Of a stretch of DNA of 18,877 nucleotides, positions 3,145 through 18,877 are shown one piece after another. A model generated the notes under the pieces. That model did not search any database and was not told the origin of the DNA. It saw only the letters and a list, made by a program, of their open reading frames with translations. A program made the translations under genes and the position numbers. Every line of letters starts with the position of its first letter. The stretch's first letter is position 1. The stretch covers positions 1 through 18,877 of the forward strand of contig JADIIU010000189.1 of the NCBI GenBank assembly GCA_027603945.1, written 5' to 3'. Source of the DNA: Terramyces sp. JEL0728. Lineage: Eukaryota > Chytridiomycota > Chytridiomycetes > Rhizophydiales > Terramycetaceae.

Positions 3145-4645
3145 ATGTCTGCACAGAAAGCTGAAGAAGGAAACAAGATATTACCAAACATTCTCGAACA
3201 TATCGGAGGAACCCCAATGGTCAGAATCAACCGCATTGGAAAAGAAGAAGGAATCGAATGCGAGATTGTTGCCAAATGTGAATTCTTCAACAGTGGTGGT
3301 TCTGTAAAAGACAGAATTGGAAAGAGAATGGTGGAATACGGCGAAAAGGACGGTATCCTAAAACAAGGAGCAACAATCATTGAACCAACCTCAGGCAACA
3401 CTGGGATTGGTTTGGCTTTGGCTGCAGCTGTAAAAGGATACAGAGCAATCATCACTCTACCTGAAAAAATGTCGCAAGAAAAAGTAGATGTATTGAAAGC
3501 CCTAGGTGCTGAGATTATCCGTACTCCAACTGAAGCAGCTTGGGATTCTCCTGATTCTCATATTGGAGTTGCAAAAAGACTAAACAAAGAAATTGACAAT
3601 TCTTGGATCCCTGACCAATACTCTAATATCAACAACCCAGATGCCCATTATTATGGAACGGCTGAAGAAATCTACGCTCAATGCGATGGTAAGCTGGATA
3701 TGTTTATTGCTGGTGTTGGTACTGGCGGTACTATTGCTGGTATCGGTAAAAGATTAAAGGAATTGATTCCTACTGTCAAAATCATTGGTGTTGATCCTTT
3801 TGGTTCCATCTTGGCTTTGCCTGATTCCCTCAACCACGAAGGTATCCATTCTTATCAAGTAAATAGTACTAATGTAGGTCGAAGGCATTGGTTATGATTT
3901 CGTTCCTGATGTATTAAACAGATCCTATGTGGATGAATGGATTAAAACGAACGACAAGGAATCTTTCTTGATGGCTCGTAGATTGATCAAGGAAGAAGGC
4001 TTGTTGTGTGGTGGTTCTTCAGGAACTGCGATGGTTGGTGCATTAAAAGCAGCCAAGATGTTGAAAAAAGGACAGCGTGCTGTTGTCTTGCTTCCAGATT
4101 CCGTCAGAAACTACATGACCAAATTCTTGAATGATGGGTGGATGAAAAAGATGGGCTTTAGCGATGAAAAGACTTTGAAGGAAGAAGAAGAAAGAAAGAG
4201 TCAGTGGGAAGGAGCCACCATCAAGGTAATGTTATTTTGACGACAGGATTTAAATCTTCCACATGCAATTACCGTTCCAGCAGCAATTTCAATCAAAAAC
4301 GCCGTTGAAATCATGAAATCTAACGGATTCGATCAATTGCCAGTAACTTCTGCATCAGATTCTAAACACTGCATCGGATTAGTAACTCTTGGAGGTCTAT
4401 TGGCTAAAATCGGGTCTGGCAGATGTAAACTCACTGATTCCTGCGACTCAGCAATGTACCAATTCAAATTAGAAAAAAAGTTCAAAGAAATTACGGTTGA
4501 TACTCCATTAGATCAAATGACAAAGTTCTTTGAAAACCACAGTAGTGCAGTTGTTACCAAGCGATCACCATTGAATGAACTATTGATTGTTTCTGTTGTT
4601 ACCAAAGTGGATTTGCTTTCTTTTTTGACCAGCAAGCTCAAATAA
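3145..4645 (+). CDS. CYS4: Cystathionine beta-synthase (three exons)
   Basis: Condenses serine and homocysteine to cystathionine in transsulfuration (PLP enzyme, cytosol). Exons are 3145-3858, 3878-4225 and 4247-4645, with introns of 19 nt (3859-3877) and 21 nt (4226-4246), giving 486 residues. The splice sites follow from family continuity: [10 protein letters not shown] joins [16 protein letters not shown], and WEGATIK joins [10 protein letters not shown]. The PLP lysine is in [16 protein letters not shown] (about residue 55), the substrate loop is [15 protein letters not shown], and the phosphate-binding loop is [20 protein letters not shown] and [16 protein letters not shown] close the catalytic core. 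Residues from about 355 form the regulatory CBS-domain region. The protein starts directly at the catalytic core, so it lacks the N-terminal heme domain of animal enzymes, as in yeast. An AATAAA overlaps the stop codon. Confidence 0.95.
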
Positions 4646-4646
4646 A
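4641..4646 (+). terminator. AATAAA polyadenylation signal overlapping the CBS stop codon
   Basis: The hexamer spans the last codon and the TAA stop (CTC AAA TAA A), which implies a 3' UTR of only a few tens of bases. Confidence 0.5.
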
Positions 4647-4792
4647 TCATTTTTTACCATTATTTTGGTCTACCTTTAAATAGTTTTCTAACAACCATCG
4701 TTACTGTTCCGTCTACTTTCATTTCTGTTTGTGTGTAGTAATTCGGTTACCCAGAGTAAATTTTTTAATTGAACATCTGGTAATCAAAAAAT

Positions 4793-6323
4793 ATGAGAAG
4801 CAAAAGTGAATTCGCTGCAGTATTGCTGGGGATATCCAGAGTAATAAACCCCAAACAGTATCCAGCGTACAAAACCATACCTTCAGTCGATATTCCAGTC
4901 GCCAAACAAAGAAATACATTTGAACATGAGGAACCAGTAAAGGTTGAAATGAAACCATCGAAAATACCTTCAACTAGGCTTGGAAGGATATACGAGTTCA
5001 CTTCTCTCGGGATTGGATTAACAGGCGGAATTATATCAGACAAAATCAAACAAACTGTTGGACTATCGTCGGGAAATTCAATCTTTTCGCCATCGAATGT
5101 TGAACGAATTGTACAGAAATTGATAAAAATGCGAGGGGCTGCATTAAAGCTTGGGCAGATGCTTAGTATTCAGGATGCGAAAACGATTCCAGCAGAAGTA
5201 CACACTATAATGAGACGAGTGCAAAACAGCGCTGATTTTATGCCTGAATGGCAACTAGACGTACAATTTGCTAATGTAGGGTGTATTGGAAAAAGAATTG
5301 GGAAGCGATTGGATGAAAGACTACGAATGCTTTGAAAAGATTCCGATTGCTGCAGCTTCAATTGGTCAAGTACACAAAGCCAAGTTGAAAACCGGAAAAG
5401 TAGTAGCTGTAAAAATACAATATCCTGGAGTTGTAGAATCAATTGATTCTGATTTGGACAACTTGATCATGTTGCTTTCACTGGGACAGCTATTGCCAAA
5501 GGGCTTGTACTTGGATAATACTGTGCGTGTCGCAAGAAATGAATTGAAAATGGAGTGCGATTACTTGAGGGAAGCTGACTCAATGGAACGATTCAGAGAA
5601 TTGATCAAGGCTGTGGATATGGACAGAGTATTCCATGTCCCAAAAGTATACAAGGGATTGTCAACCGATAAAGTATTGGTAACAGAATTTGTATATGGGA
5701 AACCAATAGACACAGCTACAAACATATCGCAAATAGACAGGGACAATGTACTACGTATTAATATTAGCTGGGCTCTAATTTATTAAAACTCTGTTTATTG
5801 GAACTATTCGAATTCAGATTCATGCAAACCGATCCAAACTGGTCAAATTTCCTTTACAACGAAAAGACAAGAAAGATTGAACTACTCGACTTCGGAGCAG
5901 CTCGAGACTTTCCAAAATCATTCACTGATACTTATTTGAAACTGTTAAAAGCCGGTGCAGACCAAAACAAGGAAAAAGCCATCAAGTACTCTATTGAACT
6001 TGGGTTCCTAACCGGATTAGAAAGCCAGGTAGCTAACACTAACATAGCAAATGACAAATGCACATGTAAACTCTTTATTTACACTCGCGCTTCCATTCTA
6101 CAACACTGGTTCAATTTATGACTTTGGCAAATCAGGCGAACTTACTGAAAAAGTACGCAGTGATATTCCAACAATGTTGAGAGAGAGACTAACACCTCCG
6201 CCTGACGAAACTTATTCTTTGCATAGAAAGCTATCGGGATGTTTCTTGCTCTGCGGTAAACTCAAATCACGTATTAATTGTGCCAAAGAATTTGAAACCA
6301 GATTCAACTCATATAAATTTTAA
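4793..6323 (+). CDS. COQ8: COQ8/ADCK-type atypical kinase for coenzyme Q biosynthesis (four exons)
   Basis: ABC1/ADCK/UbiB family protein that supports the CoQ biosynthetic complex at the mitochondrial inner membrane. Exons are 4793-5260, 5280-5747, 5768-6028 and 6048-6323, with introns of 19, 20 and 19 nt, giving 490 residues. The family hallmarks are intact: KxGQ motif in [11 protein letters not shown] (about 119-122), Ala-rich loop in [14 protein letters not shown], the lysine in VAVKIQYPG, the catalytic loop in [16 protein letters not shown] and the DFG motif in [10 protein letters not shown]. Each intron is fixed by these conserved blocks; for example [16 protein letters not shown] is only readable after removing 5748-5767. 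The basic, Ser-containing N-terminus fits a mitochondrial presequence. It converges with the STPG-like gene, with only 50 bp between stop codons. Confidence 0.94.
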
Positions 6324-6330
6324 TACATTA

Positions 6331-6336
6331 TTTATT
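6331..6336 (-). terminator. AATAAA signal for the STPG-like gene
   Basis: AATAAA on the minus strand, about 37 nt after the stop at 6374. It lies in the 50-bp gap between the convergent COQ8 and STPG-like genes, close to the COQ8 stop (6321-6323). Confidence 0.35.
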
Positions 6337-6373
6337 GTTCTTTTAAATCGACATTTACATCACACAGAAACCC

Positions 6374-7502
6374 TTATTGTGCAGTATCGGGTTCAATTAC
6401 TATATCAATAGGTGAAATTGGAGAATTTGGTTCTATATCAGCGCCAGGAATATCGATTTTCTCAGCCGCACTTTTCCTAGCAGACGACATTCGTACTTTT
6501 GACAGTCTACTCGCAACAGATAACTTCAAATCTTGTCGGCTTCCAATATCCAACCTAGATACTACCAATTAATATTTTTTACATCGAGAGTCTTCTGGCG
6601 GTAACAGTGTAGGAATATTTGTATTCAAACTACTAACTAGATAAATGGGGTTGTAAGGATTCAGCGTAGTTTTCGCACTAGGATTAACTGTAGTTACCCC
6701 AACAATCCATCTTGTTTGATTTGTGGCGTATCTTGTTTTTGATTATTCAATTCGTTATTCTAAGTAAAACTGATAATTACCATTCGGTTTTTCGTTTCAA
6801 TAAAGGACGGTTTACATGTGACTGTGGTTGATAGTTCTTGCAAAATTTGCGATTCAGTGCCTGATGTTTTCTTTATTCGCGGTGGATCTAGCATTCTGCC
6901 TAGCCTAGTCGACAAAGTTTCTATCCATGGTCTCCAACAATGCACTACATGTACAGGTTCCAGCTAAATAAAGGAAAACATACGTTATACGATGAAGGGG
7001 ATATTTGATTGGTCTGTGGGGGTTTAAATCTCCTTGCTGTGCTTTTGAATGAGCTGCATACTGGTTTTGAGGTGTACAGATCTGTGTTTTGGTAAGATCC
7101 TGGCCCTAGCTGTGCTTCAACCTCTTTTTCTGCAAATCTTTCACTTGTTTTCCCCCAGTCGTTACTATTTCTGTTCCCTTTATCCCACGTTTGAGGATAC
7201 GGATCATACGTGCCAACAGCTGCTACAACATCCTTATGATACTTGTTGATTAATCGATTGTTCAATCGCTCTGACTCTTTAATCTTGTAGAAATGCGGGA
7301 CAAATTCTTTACGCTCTTTGATATCTTCCAATTCGAATTTTAACTTTGGTGGTTTTGAGGCAGTGTCTGCTGGACTGCTTTGTACACTCTGTCGACGACT
7401 CTGCATACTTTGTCGCCGACTGTTTGACCGACTGTTCAGATTGCTTGCAGGTCTGCTGGTTGCTGGTGAGCTTGGTATTATATTTATTTTTGCTGCACTC
7501 AT
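6374..7502 (-). CDS. SHIPPO / sperm-tail PG-rich repeat-like protein (five exons)
   Basis: Exons run 7502-6984, 6963-6781, 6759-6698, 6677-6583 and 6561-6374, with introns of 20, 21, 20 and 21 nt, giving 348 residues. The start is the ATG at 7502. After a Ser/Arg-rich N-terminus, exon 1 contains VGTYDPYPQTWDKG, LGPGSYQNTDLY, FKSTARRFKPPQ and SPSSYN. The GPGSY core and its degenerate copies (VGTYDP, SPSSY) followed by an F.STARRF element resemble STPG/SHIPPO repeats (PF07004), associated with axonemal and microtubule-linked proteins. If correct, the organism makes a cilium or flagellum. The C-terminal exons are not recognisable. Around the third intron (6678-6697) another frame also looks coding (see rejected items), so exons 3-4 are less certain than the rest. 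Confidence 0.6.
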
Positions 7503-7545
7503 TAACAATGGAAAATATTTACTTTTCCTGTCTGTTTACGCACTA

Positions 7546-7880
7546 TGGGTCAATGCCACCATTATCCAAGGCAATCCAGGAGTGTAAGACATTTATATAT
7601 TCCTCGCCATATCGATTTTTTTCTTTCTTCAATCTGAAAATACTAACCTTCATGCTCCTCTGCAGGAGATTACTCTGTAAACAAGAAATGTACTCTGAAT
7701 AGTCATCTGCAGAGCCGTATTTGAAACCCCTTTATAGTAGAAGTTGTCAATTTTATTCAGTAAATTCGATGACTGGGAAAAACTGGGGAAGAACAATGGT
7801 GAAAAGTCGTGAGAAGGAAACTGTTTTTCTTTACTGATTTTTTCAACTACATTTGAGTATCCTGTGGTTATTTGGTCTCC
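7546..7880 (-). other. Unresolved coding-like stretch between the ATRIP-like and STPG-like genes
   Basis: The 417-bp gap 7503-7919 contains two overlapping minus-strand open frames that both read like protein. One (7880-7653, 76 codons) includes FPSHDFSPLFFPSFSQSSNL and STFLVYRVISCRG. The other (7731-7546, 62 codons) includes FKYGSADDYSEYISCLQSNL and ends YINVLHSWIALDNGGIDP before TAG. The first has no early ATG, and no 19-21-nt GTA...YAG segment joins the two in frame. TATATAAA at 7592-7599 may be the promoter of the STPG-like gene. I recognise no family. It may be a small multi-exon gene I cannot assemble, or a relic. Confidence 0.3.
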
Positions 7881-7918
7881 TTATCAGAACCACAATTTGC
7901 GAGTAAAGACAGAATCAA

Positions 7919-7924
7919 TTTATT
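7919..7924 (-). terminator. AATAAA polyadenylation signal overlapping the ATRIP-like stop codon
   Basis: On the minus strand the end of the gene reads GAA TAA ATT, so AATAAA contains the stop codon itself. This argues that the gene ends here and does not splice onward. Confidence 0.5.
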
Positions 7925-9452
7925 CAAATACAGTCCACCGCTTTTCCAAGTCATATTCTTCCAGGAAGATCTTAACCATGCAAAATTCTTTGAAATCAAG
8001 CATCTCTTTATCAAGGTAATTCATATGCAGGAGGTAAAACACCAGACTATCTTTGCTTTCTTTGTAATACTCGAGTACTTCAAGTACCCGGTTGGACTGT
8101 TTTAGTGTGCAGTACAGTCCGACTAGTTCATGAGAAATCGTTACGCTATTTAATTGATGTACATCTATTTCGTAGTTCTGTTTGAGGTGTACCAAATGAA
8201 GCAGTCGAATATAGTCTGTACTATCGTAATTTGGCGATATTTGCTCAAATTCGATAACATGTCCATCCTGAACCAGTAGGATAAGCAACTTGTACAGTTT
8301 ATCAGATTCGCAATGATACAATTGTGGTATCAATTCAGACGGCAGCTTGTAATCCTGAAACTCAATCAATAATAATACAATTTCCACGATATATGGATGT
8401 TGGTGGAGAAACTCTGCTTTATCCAAAAAGAAGGATTCTATGTCTGAATATGACAAATATTGCGACAATAGTAGGATTAATTCTTTGTCGGTGTTGACAT
8501 CAATCAATCGAAATGTACTGGTTTCCACAGAACTCGTTTTAGCCTGTGGCATCTCTGGAACAGGCTCTGGTGCAAAATCGACATCCATTGCATCAAAAGT
8601 ATCCAGCACTGCATCTCTACCTTTTATTCCAGAATTTTCTTGAAATGCATCCTTCTTTTTCAAGTTCTTTACTTTGTGTATGCTCATATCAAAATCGTCC
8701 ATCTTTTTCCTTTGGCTACTATTGTTTCTAGGATACACTGGTATATTTTGACTAAAATTCTGCAACGGTTCCTGATTCACTCTCTTGCTATCCCGAACAG
8801 TCTTGAGTTCTTGCTTCATAAACTCCAACTCTACTTTTAATCGTTCAATCTCAGACTTGTGCCCAGTATCTTCTCTAATACTGTTTTTCTTGATCAATTC
8901 ATTATTCATTTCAGTTAGTTTCAGCATTTTGTTTCTTATGAATGTAATTTCCCCTTGTTTTTCCATTAACGCTGATTCTAATTCTTTTAGTTTTGGGTCT
9001 TCATGCTTTTGAGATGATATTGGGTACATCATCTGGCTGCTCATTACTGGCGGTGCTTTAAATGTTGCTGGAGTAATAAATGCATTGTTTATTTGTTGAA
9101 CTGGTACAATTGGTTGAACTGTAGGTGGATCGTACTGTTTAGATTCTGAGTCTATTGCCAACAGCTTTTGAGTTGCTTGTTCCTGTAATTCATTCCAAGT
9201 TTGCTCATCAATATTGAAATCATCATATTCATCAACGTCAAGATCTTTATCATGATCATTAAATAAATTATTTCCGTTATTTGGATAAGTGATATTTGCG
9301 GTTTTCTCGATTTGGTTGCTGTTGTCGAACGATAGCAAATCATCATTGATTCCTTCTTGCAGGAGAATATCCCTGATGGATTCAATGTCTTTAATTTCTT
9401 GCTGATTCAAATTCGTCAATTCAATCCTTGGTCGTTTTCTAATTTGTTCCAT
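7920..9452 (-). CDS. ATRIP: ATRIP / Rad26 / Ddc2-like checkpoint protein
   Basis: Intron-less, 510 residues, ATG at 9452. The N-terminus has a basic KRPR nuclear-localisation-like motif. Residues about 70-98 are an acidic stretch ending DEYDDFNIDEQTWNEL, like the RPA-binding segment of ATRIP. Residues about 154-222 form a coiled coil with the phrase ALMEKQGEITFIRNKMLKL, matching the EKQGEI.ILR signature of the ATRIP/Rad26/UvsD coiled coil. The remaining 280 residues are Leu-rich and helical, as expected for the ATR-binding C-terminus. The known role is to recruit ATR/Rad3/Mec1 to RPA-coated single-stranded DNA in the nucleus. It is shorter than the 600-790 residues I expect for characterised homologues. 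Assignment rests on motif order rather than strong conservation. Confidence 0.7.
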   Translation of the reverse strand: MEQIRKRPRIELTNLNQQEIKDIESIRDILLQEGINDDLLSFDNSNQIEKTANITYPNNGNNLFNDHDKDLDVDEYDDFNIDEQTWNELQEQATQKLLAIDSESKQYDPPTVQPIVPVQQINNAFITPATFKAPPVMSSQMMYPISSQKHEDPKLKELESALMEKQGEITFIRNKMLKLTEMNNELIKKNSIREDTGHKSEIERLKVELEFMKQELKTVRDSKRVNQEPLQNFSQNIPVYPRNNSSQRKKMDDFDMSIHKVKNLKKKDAFQENSGIKGRDAVLDTFDAMDVDFAPEPVPEMPQAKTSSVETSTFRLIDVNTDKELILLLSQYLSYSDIESFFLDKAEFLHQHPYIVEIVLLLIEFQDYKLPSELIPQLYHCESDKLYKLLILLVQDGHVIEFEQISPNYDSTDYIRLLHLVHLKQNYEIDVHQLNSVTISHELVGLYCTLKQSNRVLEVLEYYKESKDSLVFYLLHMNYLDKEMLDFKEFCMVKIFLEEYDLEKRWTVFE

Positions 9453-9501
9453 TCAGATTATCTTTTTTTCGGACAAGGATAAAGTGCAGCATATAAATGC
9501 A

Positions 9502-9610
9502 GTTGATATTAATGGAAATACAAGTTGATATTAATGGAAATACAAGCTGATATTAATGGAAATACAAGTTGATATTAATGGAAATACAAGTTGATATTAA
9601 TAGGAATATA
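9502..9610. repeat. 22-bp tandem repeat, about 4.9 copies
   Basis: Units start at 9502, 9524, 9546, 9568 and 9590. Each begins GTTGATATTAATGG and ends AATACAA. The third has one substitution (GCTG), and the fifth is truncated with changes. The array begins 50 bp upstream of the ATRIP-like ATG and ends one base from the stop codon of the NDT80-like gene at 9612, so it fills the whole promoter/3' flank between them. Unit length not a multiple of three; non-coding. Confidence 0.9.
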
Positions 9611-9611
9611 T

Positions 9612-10544
9612 CTATTGAAACAATGCAAAACTAGGTTGATAGGTAAAATAATCATGAGTGGGATTCAGGTACTGAACATAGAGCTGTTGATCGAATGAAA
9701 TGGGACTGTACTGACTTTCAGGACTTTGATTAGCACTGTACTGACTCTGGCTATCCACCATTGAAATAGGAGCAGCGAATCGCAAATCTGGACTTGGTAT
9801 AGTTGAAATTACAAGATTTGGTGAGAATCTTAAAACAGGACTAGGCAACGACGGTTTTAGATTCAACTTTTTCAATTCACATGAAGGTATCTTTTGGAAT
9901 GCTAGGATTTCCTTGTACAGCTGAGCACTAAACGATCGTTCTCTATCTCTAGCTGGGATGCCACGTAAATCAGAGTTTTCTGAGCAGTTGCCAAACCGGA
10001 CGTTGATTGTGTTTGATGTCCATTCGCCAATATATACAAATCCATCTTCAGTTTCAGCGTACAAAGTAACTGTCAGATTGATAAAGTTGTGTCTTCTATC
10101 TCTGATACCCAGCTTGATTCGTTTATGCTTGATGCACAACTCATCTGCTTTTAGCTTTTCAAGAGCTACTTTTTTTGGGTTGAGTGTTTGGCAGTCAAAG
10201 AGTACATCTTCCGGTTCTTGAGTCATTGACCGTCTGTTTGGATCGACTACTTGCTCTATTCTGTAGCCAGCTTGGTTTGTAATACAAGTTTTGAACTTGC
10301 CAAGGAATTTCTTTCCTTCAATGTAAATATCTTTTCTGCATAGTAGCTGATAAAACACTGGTTGCAACCGCAGATAAATAAACAGGTAATTGGCTTTTAG
10401 ACAGGTGATGTATTCTTGATCTTGATAGTTTGCCCAGAACATGTTTTTTTCGAGGGATACATGGAAGCAATCCTGCAAGGCAACAGACTCTCCACAGATG
10501 TCAAAAGATTTGCCGGTCCAGGTGCCAATGAATGAAGGAGACAT
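9612..10544 (-). CDS. NDT80/PhoG-fold (MYRF-like) DNA-binding protein
   Basis: 310 residues from the ATG at 10544; a longer frame to 10646 begins only with TTG and its segment contains the TATA box. The N-terminal part (CFHVSLEKNMFW, then ANYLFIYLRLQPV) and the later block LNPKKVALEKLKADE followed by HNFINLTVTLYAETEDGFV and SNTINVRFGN follow the strand pattern of the NDT80-type immunoglobulin-like DNA-binding domain shared by yeast Ndt80, fungal Vib-1/PhoG proteins and animal MYRF. The C-terminal third is Ser/Pro/Gln/Tyr-rich (SQSQYSANQSPESQYSP), like a transactivation region. Likely a nuclear transcription factor; target process unknown (relatives act in meiosis, nutrient stress or protease secretion). 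Other Ig-fold factors remain possible. Confidence 0.55.
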   Translation of the reverse strand: MSPSFIGTWTGKSFDICGESVALQDCFHVSLEKNMFWANYQDQEYITCLKANYLFIYLRLQPVFYQLLCRKDIYIEGKKFLGKFKTCITNQAGYRIEQVVDPNRRSMTQEPEDVLFDCQTLNPKKVALEKLKADELCIKHKRIKLGIRDRRHNFINLTVTLYAETEDGFVYIGEWTSNTINVRFGNCSENSDLRGIPARDRERSFSAQLYKEILAFQKIPSCELKKLNLKPSLPSPVLRFSPNLVISTIPSPDLRFAAPISMVDSQSQYSANQSPESQYSPISFDQQLYVQYLNPTHDYFTYQPSFALFQ

Positions 10545-10911
10545 TTTTACTAAAAAGTCGAGGTTTTCAGGGTTTATATACTCGGCCCCATCGGGAAAGG
10601 AAAAAGCAATGCTTTGTCGTAAATTTACCGCTTCTATCAAACACAAGAAAAATCACGAAATATTTAAAAACGAGCAGAGATGCGAGTAAAACACCTTTGC
10701 AAACTGGTTTATTATCTACAGAGTTATCCTTTCCGAACAAGTTGCTTGTTTCTGCCGCGAAATCGGTAATATGCCAAATATGTTACAAGCAGCAATTAGC
10801 TGAATATGCTAGGTGCATTGCTTATAATGTTTCCAGTTGTTAAACAACGAATATGTCAGTATTTGATTCACCTCCCAATTCCCGTTTTGGATGCTTTAAA
10901 TGCCGCATTGA
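10545..10911. other. Upstream region of the NDT80-like gene, no gene seen
   Basis: About 370 bp. Apart from the TATA box at 10573-10580 I see no supported gene. A plus-strand frame at 10532-10843 overlaps the NDT80-like gene at its start and shows no recognisable motif. Confidence 0.4.
10573..10580 (-). promoter_or_regulatory. TATA box of the NDT80-like gene
   Basis: TATATAAA on the minus strand, with the TATAAA core starting 34 nt before the ATG at 10544. It supports that ATG rather than the upstream TTG and implies a very short leader. Confidence 0.55.
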
Positions 10912-11232
10912 TCACTGATCATTTGAAACACAACTGCAAATGCAAATAAAAGTGCAATCCTGAGCCAAAATACAAGGTGGAACCCGGATTAAAGTAAACT
11001 GGCTGTTGTCTTGAAATTGATGCCTGTACCGAACGGGTTTCTCAATCTTTGCTATCTCGCTATTGGTACAAAAGGTGCGTTTGGGAACCCATGCTTTTTG
11101 ATACATTTGCCAATCCCGGTCAATGGTATATACAGAGCAATTGTAGAAAGGTGTCCATCGTTGGTAAGATACAGCAAGAGATAGGAATTGTAAATTCCTA
11201 AGAGTAAGAGAAGCGGTTACGACTAATTTCAT
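10912..11232 (-). CDS. Doubtful small Cys-rich hypothetical protein
   Basis: 106 codons from an ATG near 11232. The N-terminus (MKLVVTASL, then LQFLSLAVS) could be a weak signal peptide, and the C-terminus is Cys-rich (CILAQDCTFICICSCVS), which would suit a small secreted protein. Against it: no TATA box, no AATAAA near the stop, and no family I recognise. It sits between the SET-like gene and the NDT80-like gene, both on the same strand. It may be chance or a relic. Confidence 0.25.
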   Translation of the reverse strand: MKLVVTASLTLRNLQFLSLAVSYQRWTPFYNCSVYTIDRDWQMYQKAWVPKRTFCTNSEIAKIEKPVRYRHQFQDNSQFTLIRVPPCILAQDCTFICICSCVSNDQ

Positions 11233-11391
11233 ACCGCTAATACAAATTACATTGACAAAAGTCGTACAATTTGGTAGAATTCAGAATATGAATCTGCCAG
11301 TGGTGGATGTCTCTAGTTATCCTGCACAATTCCTTCCAAACATCCAGAAATTGTCTGGCGACATTCAAATCACATTCAAAAACAATAATAA

Positions 11392-11397
11392 TTTATT
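11392..11397 (-). terminator. AATAAA polyadenylation signal overlapping the SET-like stop codon
   Basis: The minus strand reads AAG CAA TAA ATT at the gene end, so the stop codon lies inside AATAAA. Confidence 0.5.
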
Positions 11398-11891
11398 GCT
11401 TGGCCAATTCAAGGATATGCTTGTTGTAGAAATACCCTTCCTTCAATCCACTCTTGGCTCCGTTAATTAACCCAACACACCCCTTGTATCCACACCAGCA
11501 CTGGAAAGGTTGGTCCATCTCCCATTCAGTGCTAGGATAAAAAAAGGTAACTTCATCGCCAACATTGAAATCCTTATTGGCAACCAAACACATTCTGGTT
11601 GTATCTAAAAGAACAGATGGGTCACAAGAATGATTCATGTAAACCAACTCGCTGTTCAATTCAACGTGTTCGTCAACGCCAACTTGTACAGAAGTCCAGC
11701 GTTTCTTTGATTTAGTAGTACCAGTAATATCCAAAATAACGCTCCTAAATTAATCATTCTTACCCTTTTTTCACTGGTTTTTTGATGGTTGCTTTCGATG
11801 TGTAGTTTTGGTTTATTATTATTTCTACATCAGATGGGTAGACTGATTGAGAAGTGAATGGCGGTTGATACGTTTCTGCTACTTGGGTCAT
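11393..11891 (-). CDS. Small SET/post-SET domain protein (two exons)
   Basis: Exon 1 is 11891-11764 and exon 2 is 11744-11393, with a 19-nt intron at 11745-11763; 159 residues. The spliced start gives MTQVAETYQPPF, whereas the exon 2 frame alone has only a TTG. NHSCDP (80-85), VGDEVTFFYPSTEWEM and the Cys cluster CWCGYKGC (125-132) are the C-terminal half of a SET domain plus a post-SET zinc site. The N-terminal SET half, which binds much of the S-adenosylmethionine, is largely missing. Similar short post-SET proteins occur widely in fungi. Methyltransferase activity is therefore not assured. It is divergent from the uS11m gene, with 393 bp between start codons. Confidence 0.8.
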
Positions 11892-12284
11892 TTTTGAAAA
11901 AGATATTTCATCTCCACACGCGGAAATTTACCGTTGTCCGTTGTGATGCCGCCTGTCAGGTGGGATATATGGTAAATGTGATAATTGGTAAATACCAGTG
12001 TTTCCCTTTATCAAATTTCTTAATCTTTCCGCTGCCTCCGCAATGTAAATATTATGTTTATTTAAATTAGTTATGGAAGCAAAATATCCCTTACCAGGAC
12101 TATTCAGATATCACATTGCAAGAGATTTCTGTATTCGCTGTCAAGGTCTAGCAAGATATTTGCAGGCACTAAAATTAAACTCACAGATACTAAAGATATT
12201 TTTCACGGAACCACATTAATATCCTGGCTTATTGGATATCCAGCACAAATAATGCATGAGATTCCAAACTGAAATTTTTTTTAA
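11892..12284. other. Divergent intergenic region with a possible 48-residue ORF
   Basis: It lies between the SET-like gene (minus) and uS11m (plus). It contains a plus-strand ORF at 12073-12219 (48 residues, starting MEAKYPLPGLFRYHIARDF) with a protein-like composition but no recognised family, and several GATAT/ATATC motifs. No clear TATA box for either flanking gene. Confidence 0.35.
12073..12219 (+). CDS. Possible small ORF, 48 residues
   Basis: ATG at 12073, stop TAA at 12217-12219. It contains RDFCIRCQGLARYLQALKL, amphipathic and Lys/Arg-rich. It has no intron or known motif and lies directly upstream of uS11m on the same strand. It could equally be chance or a leader element. Confidence 0.2.
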   Translation: MEAKYPLPGLFRYHIARDFCIRCQGLARYLQALKLNSQILKIFFTEPH

Positions 12285-12807
12285 ATGGCATTGGGAATCT
12301 TTAAGCGAGGATTTTCTTCAATTATAAACAATATCCCCAAACCATACACTGAAACATTCCAAAAAGCCATAAACACAACCAAAGAAAAACTCGCATTCGA
12401 TTTCATTCCTCCAAAACGAATCATCCAGCCAACGAATTTATTCACAGTCTCAATTACAGCAAACAGAAACAACACTCTATGTTTTCTGTTTGACAAGCAA
12501 GGTACTCGTTGCTAATGTAGGTAAAGCCATTTGCTGGGCTTCAGCGGGAACTGTAGGATTGAAAAAGGCAAACAGAGGGACTAGCGATGCAGGGTACCAA
12601 GCTTGTTTATCAATGATTGAAAAAGCACAAGAAAAAATAGGGAATATAAAGACTCAAGGGGTTTGTATTCGGTTTAAAGGCTTTGGACCGGGAAGGGATC
12701 AAGCTTATAGGGCTATTGTTGCTAATGAATGGAAGATTAATCGGCTGGTTGATGTTACTCCCATTAGACATGGTGGCTGCAGACCTAAAAAGAAGAGAAG
12801 AATATGA
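12285..12807 (+). CDS. MRPS11: Mitochondrial small-subunit ribosomal protein uS11m (two exons)
   Basis: Exons 12285-12501 and 12521-12807 with a 19-nt intron at 12502-12520 give 167 residues. The junction restores FLFDKQGKAICWASAGTVGL, matching the conserved uS11 strand that continues into (F/W)ASAG. The downstream blocks GVCIRFKGFGPGRDQAYRAI and VDVTPIRHGGCRPKKKRRI are diagnostic: the C-terminal GCRP followed by a basic tail contacts 16S-type rRNA at the platform. The roughly 50-residue N-terminal extension begins MALGIFKRGFSSI, which fits a mitochondrial targeting sequence, and the family match is to the bacterial-type rather than the cytosolic protein. It lies 157 bp upstream of dihydrofolate reductase on the same strand. 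Confidence 0.92.
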
Positions 12808-12964
12808 GTCTAAATATATTGTGTGTTTTATTGAATTTCTCAATTTGTCATCGCATTGAACTGGTATTCCCTGTATTGCAATTATGATACATATGTGCTG
12901 ATATTTGAATTGTGTCTTTAAATTTTGTATTCCTGGAGATCAAAGTTACTAGATTCAATCAGAA

Positions 12965-13486
12965 ATGACAAAAAGGAGGGATTTCAAAGCGATCGTAGCA
13001 GCAACTGTAAAACATGGAATTGGAATCAACAATACTCTACCATGGCGAATACCAAAAGACATGCAATTCTTTAAGGACGCTACAATCTCAAAAACCTCCA
13101 AACCAAACGTAGTAATAATGGGTAAAAAGACATTCGACTCGATACCGAAACGGTTCAGACCGTTGCAAGATAGAACAAACATTGTCCTAACCCGACAATC
13201 CATCAAAGACGAATCAGTAATCTACTGTAACTCTGTCGATCAAGTATTCAAAGAGTTGGAAAATATTCAACATGAGAACGTATTTGTAATTGGAGGTAAA
13301 CAGATTTACGAATTATTTTACGAGTTTATTGATACGTTTTATTTGACTAGAGTTTATACTGATTTTGAATGTGATACTTTCTTGGAGCTGCCGGATTACT
13401 TTCAACTTTTTCACAAAGATGGAGTGCAGAAACAGGGTGATGTTGAATTTGAGTTTCAAGTATTCAAGAATAAAAGCATTTTGTGA
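12965..13486 (+). CDS. DFR1: Dihydrofolate reductase
   Basis: Intron-less, 173 residues. Reduces dihydrofolate to tetrahydrofolate with NADPH for thymidylate and purine synthesis. Visible motifs in order: FKAIVAATVKHGIGINN, the substrate loop LPWRIPKDMQFFK, the NADPH-binding VVIMGKKTFDSIP, NIVLTRQ, and VFVIGGKQIYELF containing the GG loop. The C-terminal part (FYLTRVYTDFECDTFLELPD) is the usual final strand set. Length is close to bacterial and animal enzymes and shorter than the yeast one. It is a stand-alone protein with no thymidylate synthase fusion. It converges with the sedolisin gene about 107 bp downstream. Confidence 0.96.
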   Translation: MTKRRDFKAIVAATVKHGIGINNTLPWRIPKDMQFFKDATISKTSKPNVVIMGKKTFDSIPKRFRPLQDRTNIVLTRQSIKDESVIYCNSVDQVFKELENIQHENVFVIGGKQIYELFYEFIDTFYLTRVYTDFECDTFLELPDYFQLFHKDGVQKQGDVEFEFQVFKNKSIL

Positions 13487-13586
13487 TTATTCCATCTTTA
13501 CAGATTAAGAGTTGTCAAGTTCTGAATTGCTACTACCATGCAGAGCTTGAGCTATTAATACCACAATGAAACTAAAATTTTACGCG

Positions 13587-13592
13587 TTTATT
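13587..13592 (-). terminator. AATAAA signal just after the sedolisin stop codon
   Basis: AATAAA on the minus strand starts one base after the TAG stop (13596-13594). Confidence 0.5.
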
Positions 13593-13593
13593 T

Positions 13594-15297
13594 CTAGACA
13601 AGTGCCAATAATTTCTTGAAATCAGGAGTTCCCAAACCAGTAACAGGATCATACCCAGCAGTTGCAGAAAATCCATCAGTGTCGCATCCAGGGTTGTTTC
13701 CAGAAGTAACATCATTCAAGCCTTTGTAACCTTTGGAGTACAACCATGGGTTCAAGAATCCTAGAGCGCTCTTGCCCTTGTTCAACAAGTTGTCGTTGAT
13801 CAAAGATACGATTGCAGCGAAAGCTGGTGAAGAGCAGGAAGTACCGTCAACACCTTCGACTTGTCTGTTGGAAACGATTTGATAGTTTTGACCTTGAGCA
13901 GAAACATCAGGGAAGGCACGGCCAGAAGAATTGTAGTAACCGCTGTAAGTGCTACCCAAAAAGTTCAAGTAAGAGTTGACGGCACTATCTTGGTACGATG
14001 GACGTGAGAAGTAGTTGCTAAATCCACCTGATGATAATTGAGCAGCAGTTTCAGGAATATCGGTAGTTGCACCAACTGAAGTAATGAATGGACATGTAGC
14101 TGGGAATACTGGAACGAATTGTGTGCTGCCATCAGCTCCTTGGCATTGTGATTGCCCATGACCACCATTAACACCACCGTCACCAGAAGCGAAAATCAAT
14201 GAAACACCTCTTGCTCCGAGTTTAGCAAAGTCGTTGCAAGCACGCACAGCAAAATCGCTTGGGTAGTTTGGCTCGTCGTCACCGTAAGAAGTTGAAACTA
14301 CTTGAGGTAACTGAGAGTTTGATTTAGCAAGTAGAGCTAATGCCCAGTCATCTGGTTGATGGAAATATTGGATTGAAGTATCACCATCGCCAGTTGAGTA
14401 AAAGATGTTTTGAGTAGGATAAGTCAACCCGACAGTGGTTTCGATATCAAGAGCGGCTTCAACTCCAGAGCTACCTGGACTATCAACGTTTTTTCCTCCG
14501 TTAACAGAGACGAATTTGAAGGTGGCCTTCTTTGCTGTTGGATTGTATTTGCCAAGGAATTGTTGCAAATCAGCAGTTGAAGCATATTGTCCTTCATATG
14601 ACGTTACTGCAACTTGGTTGTTCTTGTTGGTTGGAGCATAAGTACCGATATTGTAGAGTGACTTTAAACAACTTGGAGTAACCCCGTTTGAGCAATCTGC
14701 AGATCCTGCTAATGACTTTAGCCCAGATGCTTGTGATTGAGCAATCTTTTTTGGTCTAGCGCCAAACAAAGTGGTTGGCTTTACCAAATCAATGTGTTGG
14801 TGGACTTTTTCAGGAAGAGAGAATTCAGTGGTTCTGACAACAGTCTTTCCAGATTCCGGATGGGTGAAAGACTTGTAGTTGGCTTTCAACAGTTGCTGGG
14901 CTTTCGAGAGTGGCAGCTTGACGTGCAACCAGTCCTTGGCAGAGTTGAGGGAAATTTTGGATGCGTCCACTCCGTTTTCAACCAACCAGTCGGTAACTGC
15001 CTTGATAGTTTCCTGAGAAGGAGCAGTCAAAGCATCAACTTGCTCTTTGGTCAAGTGCTTTCCATAGTTTGAATGCGAGGGGTCGGAAACTTCAAACAAC
15101 TTGGCAACCAATTGATCCATGTTGGTTTGCTTCAATCCAAATCCAAAATCGACAGTTTGGTCCAAATTAACGAAATTATGTTGTTCAACCCAGCCAGTAG
15201 GAACCTTGATGGAGTCCTTGAGAACAAAAGAGTTTAATGCTGGATTTGGCATGGATAAAACGACAGCAGCCAAGAGGTAGGAAGTGTAGAGCTTCAT
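13594..15297 (-). CDS. Secreted sedolisin (S53) serine-carboxyl peptidase, tripeptidyl-peptidase-like
   Basis: 567 residues. The start is the ATG at 15297: it gives a signal peptide (MKLYTSYLLAAVVLS) and lies 37 nt after a TATA box, whereas the longer frame begins at 15387 inside the promoter. Residues about 30-180 are the pro-kumamolisin-type propeptide (LFEVSDPSHSNYGKHLTKEQV). The catalytic set is complete: E280 and D284 in SGVEAALDIE, the oxyanion D373 in FASGDGGVN, and S487 in VDGTSCSSPAFAAI. The C-terminal calcium site is visible around NDV (529-530) and AGYDPVTGLGTPDF. Such enzymes are made as zymogens, self-activate at acidic pH and cleave peptides outside the cell. Single exon. Likely well expressed, judging by the promoter. 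Confidence 0.95.
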   Translation of the reverse strand: MKLYTSYLLAAVVLSMPNPALNSFVLKDSIKVPTGWVEQHNFVNLDQTVDFGFGLKQTNMDQLVAKLFEVSDPSHSNYGKHLTKEQVDALTAPSQETIKAVTDWLVENGVDASKISLNSAKDWLHVKLPLSKAQQLLKANYKSFTHPESGKTVVRTTEFSLPEKVHQHIDLVKPTTLFGARPKKIAQSQASGLKSLAGSADCSNGVTPSCLKSLYNIGTYAPTNKNNQVAVTSYEGQYASTADLQQFLGKYNPTAKKATFKFVSVNGGKNVDSPGSSGVEAALDIETTVGLTYPTQNIFYSTGDGDTSIQYFHQPDDWALALLAKSNSQLPQVVSTSYGDDEPNYPSDFAVRACNDFAKLGARGVSLIFASGDGGVNGGHGQSQCQGADGSTQFVPVFPATCPFITSVGATTDIPETAAQLSSGGFSNYFSRPSYQDSAVNSYLNFLGSTYSGYYNSSGRAFPDVSAQGQNYQIVSNRQVEGVDGTSCSSPAFAAIVSLINDNLLNKGKSALGFLNPWLYSKGYKGLNDVTSGNNPGCDTDGFSATAGYDPVTGLGTPDFKKLLALV

Positions 15298-15644
15298 TTT
15301 ATTGATAAAGTCTTGTTCTATCCTACAATTTATACTTTTCGATTGTTCAGGCGTTTGTGGTGCAATGTGCAGTCCATGCCCAACCACATGTATTTGGTAA
15401 AAAGATCACGCAATGGCCGTTTCATATGGTCTTGAAAGTAAAGAGGTTGAATGAAATAACCATTATGTACACTGCGATTGCAGGTTTAGCAATTTCCAGG
15501 TGATCCTGACTATGAGATCGTCCAAGTGATTATGCGCAGTGAAAACCCAAAAGGCGAGACTCATGCTTTGACAGACACAAAGACACAATATGACATCTTT
15601 GTCAATGAATGAAGGAATTCCGGAATAATCAAACGGTTGGTTTA
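15298..15644 (-). promoter_or_regulatory. Promoter region of the sedolisin gene
   Basis: 347 bp between the sedolisin start and the end of the same-strand alpha/beta hydrolase gene. Besides the TATA box it has GGAATTCCGGAAT at 15614-15626, a short palindrome-like element. No gene is supported here. Confidence 0.4.
15328..15334 (-). promoter_or_regulatory. TATA box of the sedolisin gene
   Basis: TATAAAT on the minus strand, first T 37 nt before the ATG at 15297. It confirms the internal start and implies a leader of under 10-15 nt. Confidence 0.6.
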
Positions 15645-15646
15645 TT
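15641..15646 (-). terminator. AATAAA polyadenylation signal overlapping the hydrolase stop codon
   Basis: The minus strand ends AAT CCC TAA TAA ACC, so AATAAA starts inside the first TAA stop. Confidence 0.5.
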
Positions 15647-17237
15647 AGGGATTCCGAATACCCTTATTTTTTCGCAAACCATCAGAATATATCCATTCCA
15701 TAACTCTGGCAGGCGATAATACTTTGCAGTAGTGATACCCGTTGGAATCAGGATACAGATGCGTTACAAATGAATCCTCAGGGGTTTTGAATCCAACTGA
15801 TGTTACCTGTAATTGCCACTTGCCGTCGACTTGGGCATCCTTAAACCCCAACTTTGAATTGATGAATAACGGACCGATTGGTAAAATCGGTGCTGAATCA
15901 GGCTGCATCACCATTGGTTGTCCATATTGGCTGAATCTATTGTTAGCTTTTTCAGTTGCAGTTTCTAAAGCCCAATTATAAGACGCTTGATTGATATCAG
16001 CGCAGATATTTCCTTGATCAATGGAATCTAAAGGTACGTTGGGATCAGACGAAAATAGTTTGTAAATTTGTCTGGCTTTCATCTTGACCCTGATTTCATA
16101 TGCAGTGGCACTTGGGAAACCAGAATCTGAGGAATCTTCTTCGTACATAACTTGCGATACCGTGGTAGAGTTCATTAAGCAAGGCAAACTACCAACGGTA
16201 CAGTTGGACCAAATGTGAGCGTGATGGTAAGGTTTAGTGTCTGACACATCATGAATCGCATCAACATTGATTAGTGGATATTTGGACTCATCTAACCCAG
16301 CCATTATATGAGCAGCAGTGTTTGTAAACGGAACACCACAAACGCAGTCAGAATCTCCAGACATTGTTCTATTTGGCTGCAATGGCCATGCCGGATAGTA
16401 TGGACAATGTGGTGATGGCTTGTCCGAGTTGCAAGCAGTGTACAAGTTTGGTGATGCCTCCATCGCAAAAGCTTTCAACATAGGGTCAAGGAATCGCCTA
16501 GTATTTTGAACCAATGTGACCAAAGGAGATGCATCATCACAAGTTTGCTGTTGCAGACACAGGAAGTATGAACTTGCTGCCGCAACTTGTTGATGAGCCT
16601 GGTCGGTAGAGATATCTGGTTTCAAATCCAAGTAGGACACTGTAACTGGTACCCTCTTACCATCTGCATATTGAATATGTGACATTCCTTCAACAACAAC
16701 GATCGGATTCTTGGCAACTGTGGTAGCATCAATGTCCAACCTTTTCCTGTCAAAATAGTTATAAAATGCTTCGCCAACTCGAGATACCCTTTGCAAACCA
16801 TCTAATTCTGCGTTCACAGCAAGAATTGGGATTGGAAAGTTGTATTCATATTTTCTATTAACCGAAGCTCCATAGATAATGCACGCTTTGTAAAGTGATG
16901 GATAAGCAGATGCTTCTTCCATCGCTGCAGCTGCACCCAAAGAATGGCCCGCAATGTAAACAGGTAAATCGGATGGAGCAAGTTTCAAAGCATTTTGAAT
17001 ACCACTGTGCATGTAAGATTGAATAGGTAAAGCTAGATCCAACAGGAATTCAGGTAAAAGGGCATGAATAGGAAAGTTTGCAGCGTCTTGGATTGCTCTA
17101 ACTGTATCTACGTATGATCCAGACGGAATTTGGGCACCTTGGATGAAAACAAGAACTGCTGCTGGTCCAATTTTAGATGCTGGTGGTGCCAAATAAGTAG
17201 CTGCAGCTGCAATTGAGGAAATTAATAAGCTGAACAT
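15645..17237 (-). CDS. Secreted alpha/beta hydrolase (lipase/esterase-like) with a long C-terminal region
   Basis: Intron-less, 530 residues. The N-terminus (MFSLLISSIAAAATYLA) is a signal peptide. A chlorophyllase/cutinase-like alpha/beta hydrolase core covers about residues 25-195: oxyanion region VLVFIQGAQIPSGSY, nucleophile elbow IAGHSLGAAAA with S99, acid D146 in NAELDGLQ, and H187 in VEGMSHIQY. Beyond residue 200 is a Cys-containing extension of some 330 residues with HHAHIWSNCT and SDCVCGVPF, not recognised as a known domain. Substrate unknown; an extracellular ester or lipid is likely. Same strand as the sedolisin gene downstream, and divergent from the nucleoporin-like gene. A TATA box lies 31 nt before the ATG. 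Confidence 0.85.
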   Translation of the reverse strand: MFSLLISSIAAAATYLAPPASKIGPAAVLVFIQGAQIPSGSYVDTVRAIQDAANFPIHALLPEFLLDLALPIQSYMHSGIQNALKLAPSDLPVYIAGHSLGAAAAMEEASAYPSLYKACIIYGASVNRKYEYNFPIPILAVNAELDGLQRVSRVGEAFYNYFDRKRLDIDATTVAKNPIVVVEGMSHIQYADGKRVPVTVSYLDLKPDISTDQAHQQVAAASSYFLCLQQQTCDDASPLVTLVQNTRRFLDPMLKAFAMEASPNLYTACNSDKPSPHCPYYPAWPLQPNRTMSGDSDCVCGVPFTNTAAHIMAGLDESKYPLINVDAIHDVSDTKPYHHAHIWSNCTVGSLPCLMNSTTVSQVMYEEDSSDSGFPSATAYEIRVKMKARQIYKLFSSDPNVPLDSIDQGNICADINQASYNWALETATEKANNRFSQYGQPMVMQPDSAPILPIGPLFINSKLGFKDAQVDGKWQLQVTSVGFKTPEDSFVTHLYPDSNGYHYCKVLSPARVMEWIYSDGLRKNKGIRNP

Positions 17238-17260
17238 TTGAATTGACTATTCCCCCCTGG

Positions 17261-17268
17261 TATTTATA
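17261..17268 (-). promoter_or_regulatory. TATA box of the alpha/beta hydrolase gene
   Basis: TATAAATA on the minus strand, first T 31 nt before the ATG at 17237. Conventional start-site spacing would place transcription start at or almost at the ATG. Confidence 0.6.
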
Positions 17269-17416
17269 TCATCCTTTTTGGAAATATCTGGACTGGAGCT
17301 TCGAGGGAACATCGGCCCACACCCAATTGGGAAATCGTTTGCATCAACCGCATTCCTTGTACAGACCAGCACTGCACAAGAAATTCCATATAATTGTGCA
17401 CTACAAAGTCTTGCTA

Positions 17417-17453
17417 GTTCCATTTATTGCAAATGGATTGCAATAGATGGAAC
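17417..17453. repeat. 16-bp inverted repeat in the divergent promoter
   Basis: Left arm GTTCCATTTATTGCAA (17417-17432), 5-nt spacer, right arm TTGCAATAGATGGAAC (17438-17453). The arms are complementary except for one T/G position. It lies in the 376-bp region (17238-17613) between the alpha/beta hydrolase and the nucleoporin-like gene, which otherwise holds only the hydrolase TATA box and no supported gene. Confidence 0.75.
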
Positions 17454-17613
17454 AGCATCGGTTAGCCTCGGAAGCTGATCTATACTCATTCAATGGTGCT
17501 CGTAGTTGTCTATATCGAAATCTCGTACTAGCAAGAGTAGATAACGACACAGACTATTTCCAGTCAAAATATTTATTATGCTGCGAATTCTTTTTGGAAA
17601 AAAATAAATCTGG

Positions 17614-18877
17614 ATGACTAGCAATTCATCGATCAACAATATCAACGCGAATGAGTTACTAGTCCGCTTCATGTCATTAAAAAATGGGATATTTTCAGAA
17701 AAAGAGATATCCTATTGCAATGAATTGATGACAGGAAAGCTCACACAATCTACTTTTCAAGCAGTTACTGAAATAATGGAAGCCTTGGGAAAAGAAAAGC
17801 AGAGTCAGCACCAACCAAATCTTGCCAGCGATGCTTCAGAAATTGAACAATCCCAGCCAACTGCTGCAAAATCATTGAAAAGACCGTTGTTTTCATATCC
17901 GTCTACCCTGACCAGCAAACCATCAAAACCAAATACAATCAGAAAGAATCTAAAAGTCAAAATAACAAAGAAGCCATTTCAGTATTTGTCGTATTCAAAA
18001 AAGCCTGCACCAGTATTTGATCTCAATCAAAGAGTGGATATAAAACGCCAGAAATTGGATACCACAGTCAAAGAAGAGCCAGCAAAGGAGAAAACAGCCA
18101 AACCACAATCCGGAGCAGCAAAGGTGATTTTAGATTCCTTGGCTCCTATAGATTTGTTATTTGGAAATGTTGAACCTCTTCCAAACCCATACATGGCCAA
18201 AGTACCAGAATTTACCCCAAACAAAGGGAATAAGTCTGTATCATCATCGGCTGAATCATCTCCAGTTAAATCGTCAACTAAAAGCCCTGTTAGATCGATT
18301 ATTCCAACAACTCCTGGAAAGTCTGTACTAGTTACACAACCTGAACCTATTAAATCAAAAGCTGCTGAAATTCTAAAGTTTATTGTTAATGATGACGAAC
18401 AGGAAGAAATAATTCAAGATGCAGCACCATTGTTTACATTTGGAAATACTGCTGTGCCCCAAACTTCGAACGAGTCTATTCAAGACAAACCAATGATATT
18501 CAAATCACCAGTAACATTGAAGAACGATTCACCCAAACACACGATTCCTAAAAATCCAATTTTACCGCTTGTTTCAAAGTCCAAAGCTAAGTTGCCCTCC
18601 CATAATGTTGCCCTCCCAACCTTTGTAGAAATTATTTAACTTTAGGAATTTACATGGTCTAAACCTGAAGTTAATCTTCCCATATGGCTATCTTCACACA
18701 CGGTATGGAATAATGTTTTACCTGACACATCATTTAAGTGGACAGAGATAGATAGCAATATCGTTGCTAAAAATGCAGGCTTCAACTTTGCAGCGTCTGG
18801 ATATACTTTACAGAAAAAACCAGGATGGAAATGCGATACATGCATGGTGGATAACAAGGAAGACTCTACCAAATGTG
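17614..18877 (+). CDS. Nucleoporin-like protein with RanBP2-type zinc finger (Nup153-like, partial)
   Basis: Exon 1 is 17614-18624 (337 codons), intron 18625-18645 (21 nt), and exon 2 runs off the window. The long N-terminal part is Ser/Pro/Lys-rich and disordered, with basic clusters (NLKVKITKKPFQYLSYSKK), repeated SSPVK/KSPV phosphosite-like motifs and an FG-type element in AAPLFTFGN. After splicing, PTF joins EFTWSKPEVN. Near the edge GWKCDTCMVDNKEDSTKC is a RanBP2-type zinc ribbon (WxCxxC...N...C), the type found in Nup153 and RanBP2 that binds Ran. The mix suggests a nuclear-basket nucleoporin. The fourth zinc ligand and any FG repeats lie outside the window. Other RanBP2-finger proteins remain possible. 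Confidence 0.65.

Follow-up and report, generated by a model that had tools for sequence, protein, structure and literature searches.

Six protein genes in the window, a stretch of 18,877 nucleotides (nt) that makes up contig C189 of a 15,016,339-base assembly in 231 contigs, are interrupted by twelve segments of only 19–21 nt. These are almost certainly U2-type spliceosomal introns, judged from genomic sequence, of a chytrid near Boothiomyces whose intron lengths would have collapsed genome-wide to 19–22 nt, little above the smallest intron sizes on record. The twelve segments had been proposed in an original prediction made from the window alone; once cut out, all of them were confirmed in coordinates and strand, with lengths of 19 nt (five introns), 20 nt (three) and 21 nt (four), GTA at every start, and TAG at eleven ends, CAG occurring only in 4226–4246. 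The GT...AG ends of U2-type introns are present in all twelve, and ten contain a YTRAY pentamer whose A lies at intron position 14 or 15. The accompanying idea of a fungal-type nuclear genome with a narrow intron minimum near 20 nt is supported by the 15.0 Mb assembly, the chytrid affinity and a single length mode at 19–22 nt; the proposed pattern of 19–21 nt and GTA starts holds broadly, except that the range extends to 22 nt and at least one intron, in the U2AF65 gene, starts with GTG.

Intron lengths in the sampled genome

Lengths were scanned in the window and in a 10-kb piece of each of the 20 largest contigs (218,877 bases on 21 contigs, about 1.5% of the genome). In a first scan, removal of GT..AG had to join two open frames, each 200 nt or longer, with the unspliced frame closing, which yielded 38, 53, 24 and 13 candidates at 19, 20, 21 and 22 nt, respectively, against 3–8 per length at 12–18 nt and 4–15 at 23–27 nt; above 27 nt, a background rises slowly to 17–30 near 120 nt and forms no peak. 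None of five control pairs (TG..GA, GA..TG, AG..GT, GT..GA and TG..AG) peaked at 19–22 nt. A codon-score filter of the candidates lost too much sensitivity and was dropped in favor of the branch motif. The motif scan required a GTA start, a YTRAY pentamer 0–5 nt before AG and 90-nt open flanks on both sides, and frame-bridging candidates then numbered 42, 52, 27 and 18 at 19, 20, 21 and 22 nt, with 3 at 18 nt, 5 at 23 nt, none at 24 nt and a background mean of 2.4 at 24–53 nt. The Poisson tail at 20 nt is about 1e-49, for neighboring candidates that are not fully independent. The length histogram called for in the original prediction thus has one narrow mode, of the kind (single, at or below about 25 nt) that marks tiny-intron genomes; dominance of introns longer than 50 nt, the outcome that had been named as refuting, was looked for in this sample and not seen.

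Two of four motif controls, with a GAT or an ATG start, were flat. The permuted branch motif gave a peak (23 and 25 at 19 and 20 nt), read here as a consequence of its overlap with the TAAT of the real motif, and a GA tail gave 11 candidates each at 21 and 22 nt, which is what a real AG standing before an A would produce. With a GG tail, 22 candidates were counted at 19–22 nt, compared with 10 at 12–18 nt and 13 at 24–33 nt, a rise that probably stems from genuine AG ends with a G after them. GTA starts and AG ends give by far the largest excess: at 20 nt, GTA yielded 52 candidates, against small rises of 8 for GTG, 5 for GTC, 10 for GTT and 8 for ATA. Similarly, a repeat set of 14 unused loci (47,684 bases, after 10 of 24 short loci were removed as overlaps or near-duplicates) gave 6, 9, 9 and 2 candidates at 19, 20, 21 and 22 nt, one 5' site entering the counts at both 19 and 22 nt, and 0 or 1 per length at 12–18 and 23–30 nt. 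Seven 49-nt candidates in the repeat set were set aside as scattered and of no common class, one of them sharing its 3' end with a tiny intron. Stopless 21-nt introns were also sought among long open frames and showed no excess, with 2 at 21 nt against 0–6 elsewhere at lengths of 12–30 nt.

Homology matches to kinases offered a check independent of the scan, in which 143 rows, among the best candidates scored, contained 21 adjacent exon pairs with gaps below 800 nt. Ten pairs change frame, at 19 nt (one), 20 nt (six), 22 nt (one) and 23 nt (two), by a method that is blind to 21-nt introns; two of the ten, on C42, are probably copies of one gene. The remaining eleven, estimated at 36–201 nt, were rejected as introns and read as protein insertions, because each length is divisible by three and the pieces are reported in a single frame; some of these rows contain stops, and tiny introns may sit inside them. 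These data bear on the alternative of two intron classes, in which ordinary introns of 50–300 nt accompany the tiny ones and were missed, an arrangement that we regard as unlikely. A small long class could hide because the scan background grows with length, and introns in untranslated regions are invisible to the scan; moreover, the 1051 motif-filtered candidates at 24–300 nt, set against 1070, 748 and 1124 in three controls, speak only against a large class. On the other hand, no second mode was seen in the motif scan up to 300 nt, the frame-changing kinase pairs all fall at or below 23 nt with gaps to 800 nt allowed, and no gene of the window calls for a longer intron, as had been claimed from the outset.

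Further support comes from a pair of genomic stretches, L029 and L030, that are 98.9% identical with five indels, one of which lies inside an intron (21 nt at L029:1513–1533 and 20 nt at L030:1513–1532). After splicing, both encode the same 136-residue end, in what is a single case; unspliced, one copy stops within the intron and the other frameshifts and then stops, and none of the remaining four indels falls within this coding part. Against TIGR01642, the unspliced U2AF65 gene reaches 251.7 bits in its best piece, below the cut-off of 310.3, whereas removal of four introns (20, 20, 19 and 19 nt, one of them the GTG case) gives a 440-residue product of 334 bits, above it. The narrow lengths could in principle be mimicked by errors of sequencing or assembly, or by frames joined by chance, since single-base errors can force frame changes, the joins were originally picked by eye, and some scan candidates are certainly chance. 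The likelihood of such an artefact is nevertheless negligible in view of a peak far above controls and background, the fits to conserved proteins (CBS, COQ8, uS11m and U2AF65), and a second genomic copy that has another intron length and the same protein.

Near-identical stretches also occur elsewhere (L002/L003, L004/L005 and L042/L043; 98.0–99.2% across the pairs), some on one contig, and the kinase rows hint at additional copies on C3, C18, C26 and C42, which suggests uncollapsed alleles or recent segmental duplication.

Window genes, splice signals and splicing machinery

The claim that the twelve introns keep six proteins in frame is borne out to different degrees. Separate exons match the Pfam families PALP and CBS, ABC1, SET, and ribosomal S11. 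For cystathionine beta-synthase (CBS), the spliced product aligns over query residues 7–481 with the solved structure 4l0d, which we take to be human CBS, and both junctions are gapless; all three COQ8 junctions and the single junction of the mitochondrial ribosomal protein uS11 (uS11m) are likewise gapless against solved homologues. Compared with seven chytrid proteins, the spliced COQ8 fits at its junctions, except that P0004, the Boothiomyces sp. JEL0866 model, lacks 11 residues directly upstream of intron 2. The STPG-like gene is supported by two Boothiomyces proteins, which match its exons over much of their length and falter at some junctions, and "STPG" serves as a name only, because no Pfam family was matched. 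The spliced SET-like product carries a SET match of 30.4 bits with the intron outside the matched region, and the nucleoporin-like product shows a weak RanBP zinc-finger match after splicing (17.1 bits against a cut-off of 27); frame and motif are what point to the predicted introns of these two genes.

Table 1. Genes of the window and the tiny introns predicted in them
Feature	Position	Strand	Remarks
CBS gene	3145..4645	+	two tiny introns
CBS intron 1	3859..3877	+	19 nt; branch A at 14; gapless against solved CBS
CBS intron 2	4226..4246	+	21 nt; branch A at 15; gapless junction; retention gives in-frame stop
COQ8 (ABC1 kinase) gene	4793..6323	+	three tiny introns
COQ8 intron 1	5261..5279	+	19 nt; branch A at 14; gapless junction
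COQ8 intron 2	5748..5767	+	20 nt; branch A at 14; gapless against solved homologue
COQ8 intron 3	6029..6047	+	19 nt; branch A at 14; gapless junction
STPG-like gene	6374..7502	-	four tiny introns
STPG-like intron 1	6964..6983	-	20 nt; no YTRAY
STPG-like intron 2	6760..6780	-	21 nt; no YTRAY
STPG-like intron 3	6678..6697	-	20 nt; branch A at 14
STPG-like intron 4	6562..6582	-	21 nt; branch A at 14
SET-domain-like gene	11393..11891	-	one tiny intron
SET-like sole intron	11745..11763	-	19 nt; branch A at 14
uS11m gene	12285..12807	+	one tiny intron
uS11m sole intron	12502..12520	+	19 nt; branch A at 14; gapless junction
Nucleoporin-like gene	17614..18877	+	one tiny intron; continues past window end
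Nucleoporin-like sole intron	18625..18645	+	21 nt; branch A at 15

Other features of the window include GTATCCTTCTATTAACAACAG at 2272–2292 (+), which matches the intron motif at 21 nt within the open frame 2169–2762 and is possibly a thirteenth, stopless intron, the frame having no stop there. A 510-residue protein encoded at 7920–9452 (-) has an N-terminal acidic stretch and a coiled coil, and may resemble an ATRIP/Rad26-like checkpoint protein; an intronless gene at 13594–15405 (-) encodes a secreted-type peptidase, in which a pro-kumamolisin activation domain and a subtilase match were recognized.

The anatomy of the introns was described from 137 distinct introns picked by motif, in which the presence of YTRAY holds by construction, because the motif was required, and its narrow placement less so. 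The predicted branch A lies at position 14 in 63 introns, 15 in 53, 16 in 14, 13 in 3, 17 in 3 and 12 in 1; positions 14–16 account for 130 of the 137, which is the near-fixed placement characteristic of tiny-intron genomes. From this A to the last G, the distance is 5 nt (62 introns), 6 (49), 7 (12), 4 (9), 8 (3) or 3 (2), hence 5–6 nt in 111. The branch pentamers are TTAAT (47), CTAAT (30), TTAAC (21), CTAAC (17), TTGAC (9), TTGAT (8) and CTGAT (5), the 3' ends are TAG (81), CAG (34), AAG (21) and GAG (1), and phases 0, 1 and 2 are represented by 42, 53 and 42 introns. At the 5' end, GTA is kept and the G at +5 is mostly lost, G remaining in only 17 introns, against T in 73 and A in 26; GTAAGT opens 4 introns, and the commonest hexamers are GTAATT, GTATTT and GTAATC, away from the GURAGU consensus of U2-type introns. 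Because this consensus describes a tendency and is not obligatory, the U2-type class is still admissible; the commonest hexamers do not match RTATCCTT, the U12-type 5' motif.

The YTRAY site matches the GUAGUA box of U2 small nuclear RNA (snRNA), which is present in one full-length copy of 140.2 bits. Both halves of SF1-HH were found, with 66.2 and 42.9 bits, on either side of a 19-nt GT..AG intron whose removal gives a frame of 304 residues, and Cwc25 occurs in two near-identical copies with an intact N-terminal GGG plug, MGGGDLNLKKSWHP. Hence, the survey of U1, U2 and SF1/U2AF genes that had been suggested turned up U2, U2AF65 and SF1, and did not turn up U1; those components of the machinery that were open to checking appear ordinary. 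Short in-frame gaps could alike arise by DNA elimination, translational bypassing or Ire1/tRNA-type ligation, yet removal by any such non-spliceosomal route is highly improbable here: the excess is by far greatest for GTA starts and AG ends, the YTRAY pentamer stands at a fixed place and is complementary to GUAGUA of U2 snRNA, and SF1, U2AF65 and Cwc25 are retained.

Proposed mechanism and known tiny-intron systems

For U2-type splicing of such introns, recognition of the branch site first may be envisaged, in which SF1 and U2 would define the strong YTRAY site directly. Because usually only 2–3 nt separate the branch site from AG, a polypyrimidine tract cannot fit downstream, and U2AF65 would have to work without one, either by binding the U-rich sequence that precedes the branch site (T in 493 of 1181 letters) or through protein contacts alone. 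The 3' splice site would be the first AG after the branch site, and a shortened U6/5' splice-site helix, which would fit the loss of the +5 G preference, may allow the U6 and U2 helices to fit together on about 14 nt of intron. Introns shorter than 19 nt would not be spliced and deletions would have removed the longer ones, so that only a narrow peak is left; the branch A lies 13–15 nt after the first G and AG 5–6 nt later in most introns, each spacing varying by 1–2 nt. More tentatively, and with doubt outweighing confidence, the whole lineage including Boothiomyces may have essentially no intron longer than about 23 nt, together with spliceosome assembly compacted in order or geometry (U6 and U2 helices shortened or sequential on 14 nt), U2AF65 acting without a downstream tract, and U1 and U6 diverged beyond standard models. 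In human cells, according to excerpts of the papers cited in this section, some short introns, with truncated tracts, use SPF45, not U2AF (PMC8363638), and a short distance from 5' splice site to branch site requires Smu1 and RED (PMC6692369).

Several considerations weigh against U2-type splicing of collapsed introns throughout this genome. By the structure of the human B complex, the 5' splice site and the branch site should lie about 52 nt apart, and assembly on an adenovirus test pre-mRNA fails at 35 nt (PMC6692369), so that the mechanism in the chytrid must depart from the human-type model. YTRAY is missing from 6964–6983 and 6760–6780, where only TTTAT or TTTAC is nearby, as well as from the 19-nt SF1 intron, and about ten of the 137 introns are expected by chance at the background rate. 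The scan, besides its small share of the genome, its 90-nt open flanks and its blindness to untranslated regions, recovers only 6 of the 12 window introns and has low power for rare long ones. U1 snRNA was not found with a covariance model, nor U6 snRNA with a covariance model, two mismatch patterns, BLAST and a gapped pattern, interrupted and diverged forms included; two weak U6 covariance matches proved to be coding sequence, namely the end of one protein-coding gene in two copies. Because no related genome served as a positive control for these searches, absence or divergence of U1 and U6 cannot be claimed, and either may be missing from the assembly, interrupted, diverged, or missed at the first pass of the search. 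Moreover, the removal of the introns is itself predicted from genomic sequence, and we infer the branch point, the helix shortening and the role of U2AF.

Tiny introns are already known from nucleomorphs (18–21 nt) and Stentor (15–16 nt), and the original prediction's mention of both agrees with the excerpted literature (PMC6461891, PMC9505925). The Bigelowiella natans nucleomorph has hundreds of introns of 18–21 nt, and the range over four chlorarachniophyte nucleomorph genomes is 18–23 nt (PMC6461891); the likeness lies in many introns within a narrow range, whereas a nucleomorph is the reduced nucleus of an endosymbiont, its U1 and U5 snRNAs shrunken, and the chytrid has a 15 Mb fungal nuclear genome. 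In Stentor coeruleus, introns of 15–16 nt have the branch A at position 10 of 15, 5 nt from the end, the most abundant single intron starts GUAAUU, there is no strong branch consensus, and the Cwc25 GGG plug is lost; changes in branching factors are conjectured by the authors to avoid a clash with a 10-nt loop (PMC9505925). Stentor, a free-living host, thus resembles the chytrid in its rigid branch position, a commonest distance of 5 nt to the end and GTAATT as the commonest start, and differs from it in that the chytrid has introns of 19–22 nt, a usual YTRAY and the plug kept.

Similarly, the mikrocytid Mikrocytos mackini has numerous conserved introns of nearly a single length, 16–17 nt (PMC10245619), but is an obligate parasite with a strongly reduced spliceosome of 17–19 identified proteins. 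Paramecium is a free-living cell whose very short introns are read as U2-type, with a far broader length range than in the chytrid (P. bursaria median 24 nt, range 15–100; P. tetraurelia median 25; PMC12862383). Among intron-bearing fungal genomes with short introns, Cryptococcus neoformans has a mean of 63 nt, called relatively short among 644 fungal genomes (PMC8476143), compared with 19–22 nt here, and the excerpt of the Batrachochytrium genome paper gives intron numbers, not lengths (PMC5364385). No report of introns of about 20 nt in a chytrid or in Boothiomyces was present among the matches listed from the open-access literature. Tiny-intron genomes being known from nucleomorphs, heterotrich ciliates and mikrocytids, the chytrid case adds a fungus and is read here as a further independent collapse.

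Relatives and significance

Boothiomyces belongs to the Terramycetaceae of the Rhizophydiales, and its proteins stand closest to those of the window: COQ8 identities are 84% and 82%, with Globomyces next by score at 57%, and for the 510-residue protein the two relatives at E <0.001, among the best 8000 candidates scored, are both from Boothiomyces (63% and 59%). Seven junctions in two genes were compared with public Boothiomyces gene models, and three or four of them appear to be wrong in the models. For example, P0124 continues past the 6964–6983 junction with V-T-F-T-D-I-A-G-T, seemingly an intron read-through; back-translated, these residues fit GTNACNTTYACNGAYATAG, which is 19 nt long with a possible CTGAY whose A is at 14 and is followed by CNG GNA, which can encode L-E as in the window. 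Likewise, P0123 ends in R-C-N-Y-C at the 6562–6582 junction, another seeming read-through, and this end, with the right phase and the next stop codon, fits GTAAYTAYTGYTRA, in which A14 falls in the stop codon. P0123 also lacks 7 residues directly upstream of the 6760–6780 junction, and this gap and that of P0004 look as if a gene finder had been forced into a longer intron. P0003, a Boothiomyces COQ8, is correct at all three junctions. From these protein comparisons, the Boothiomyces relatives probably carry the same tiny introns. Because their gene models drop residues at such junctions or apparently translate introns, the proteomes of this family may need re-annotation, and work based on them may be affected.

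In this fungus, a gap of 13–15 nt from 5' splice site to branch site would be accommodated with SF1, U2AF65 and the Cwc25 plug all kept, and because the plug is intact, its loss is not required at 14 nt. Relatives of this chytrid are free-living; if it is free-living as they are, the strongly reduced genome of a parasite or organelle is not required for tiny introns. Its relatives are also kept in culture collections, so that the smallest workable spliceosomal intron could become experimentally accessible in a chytrid.

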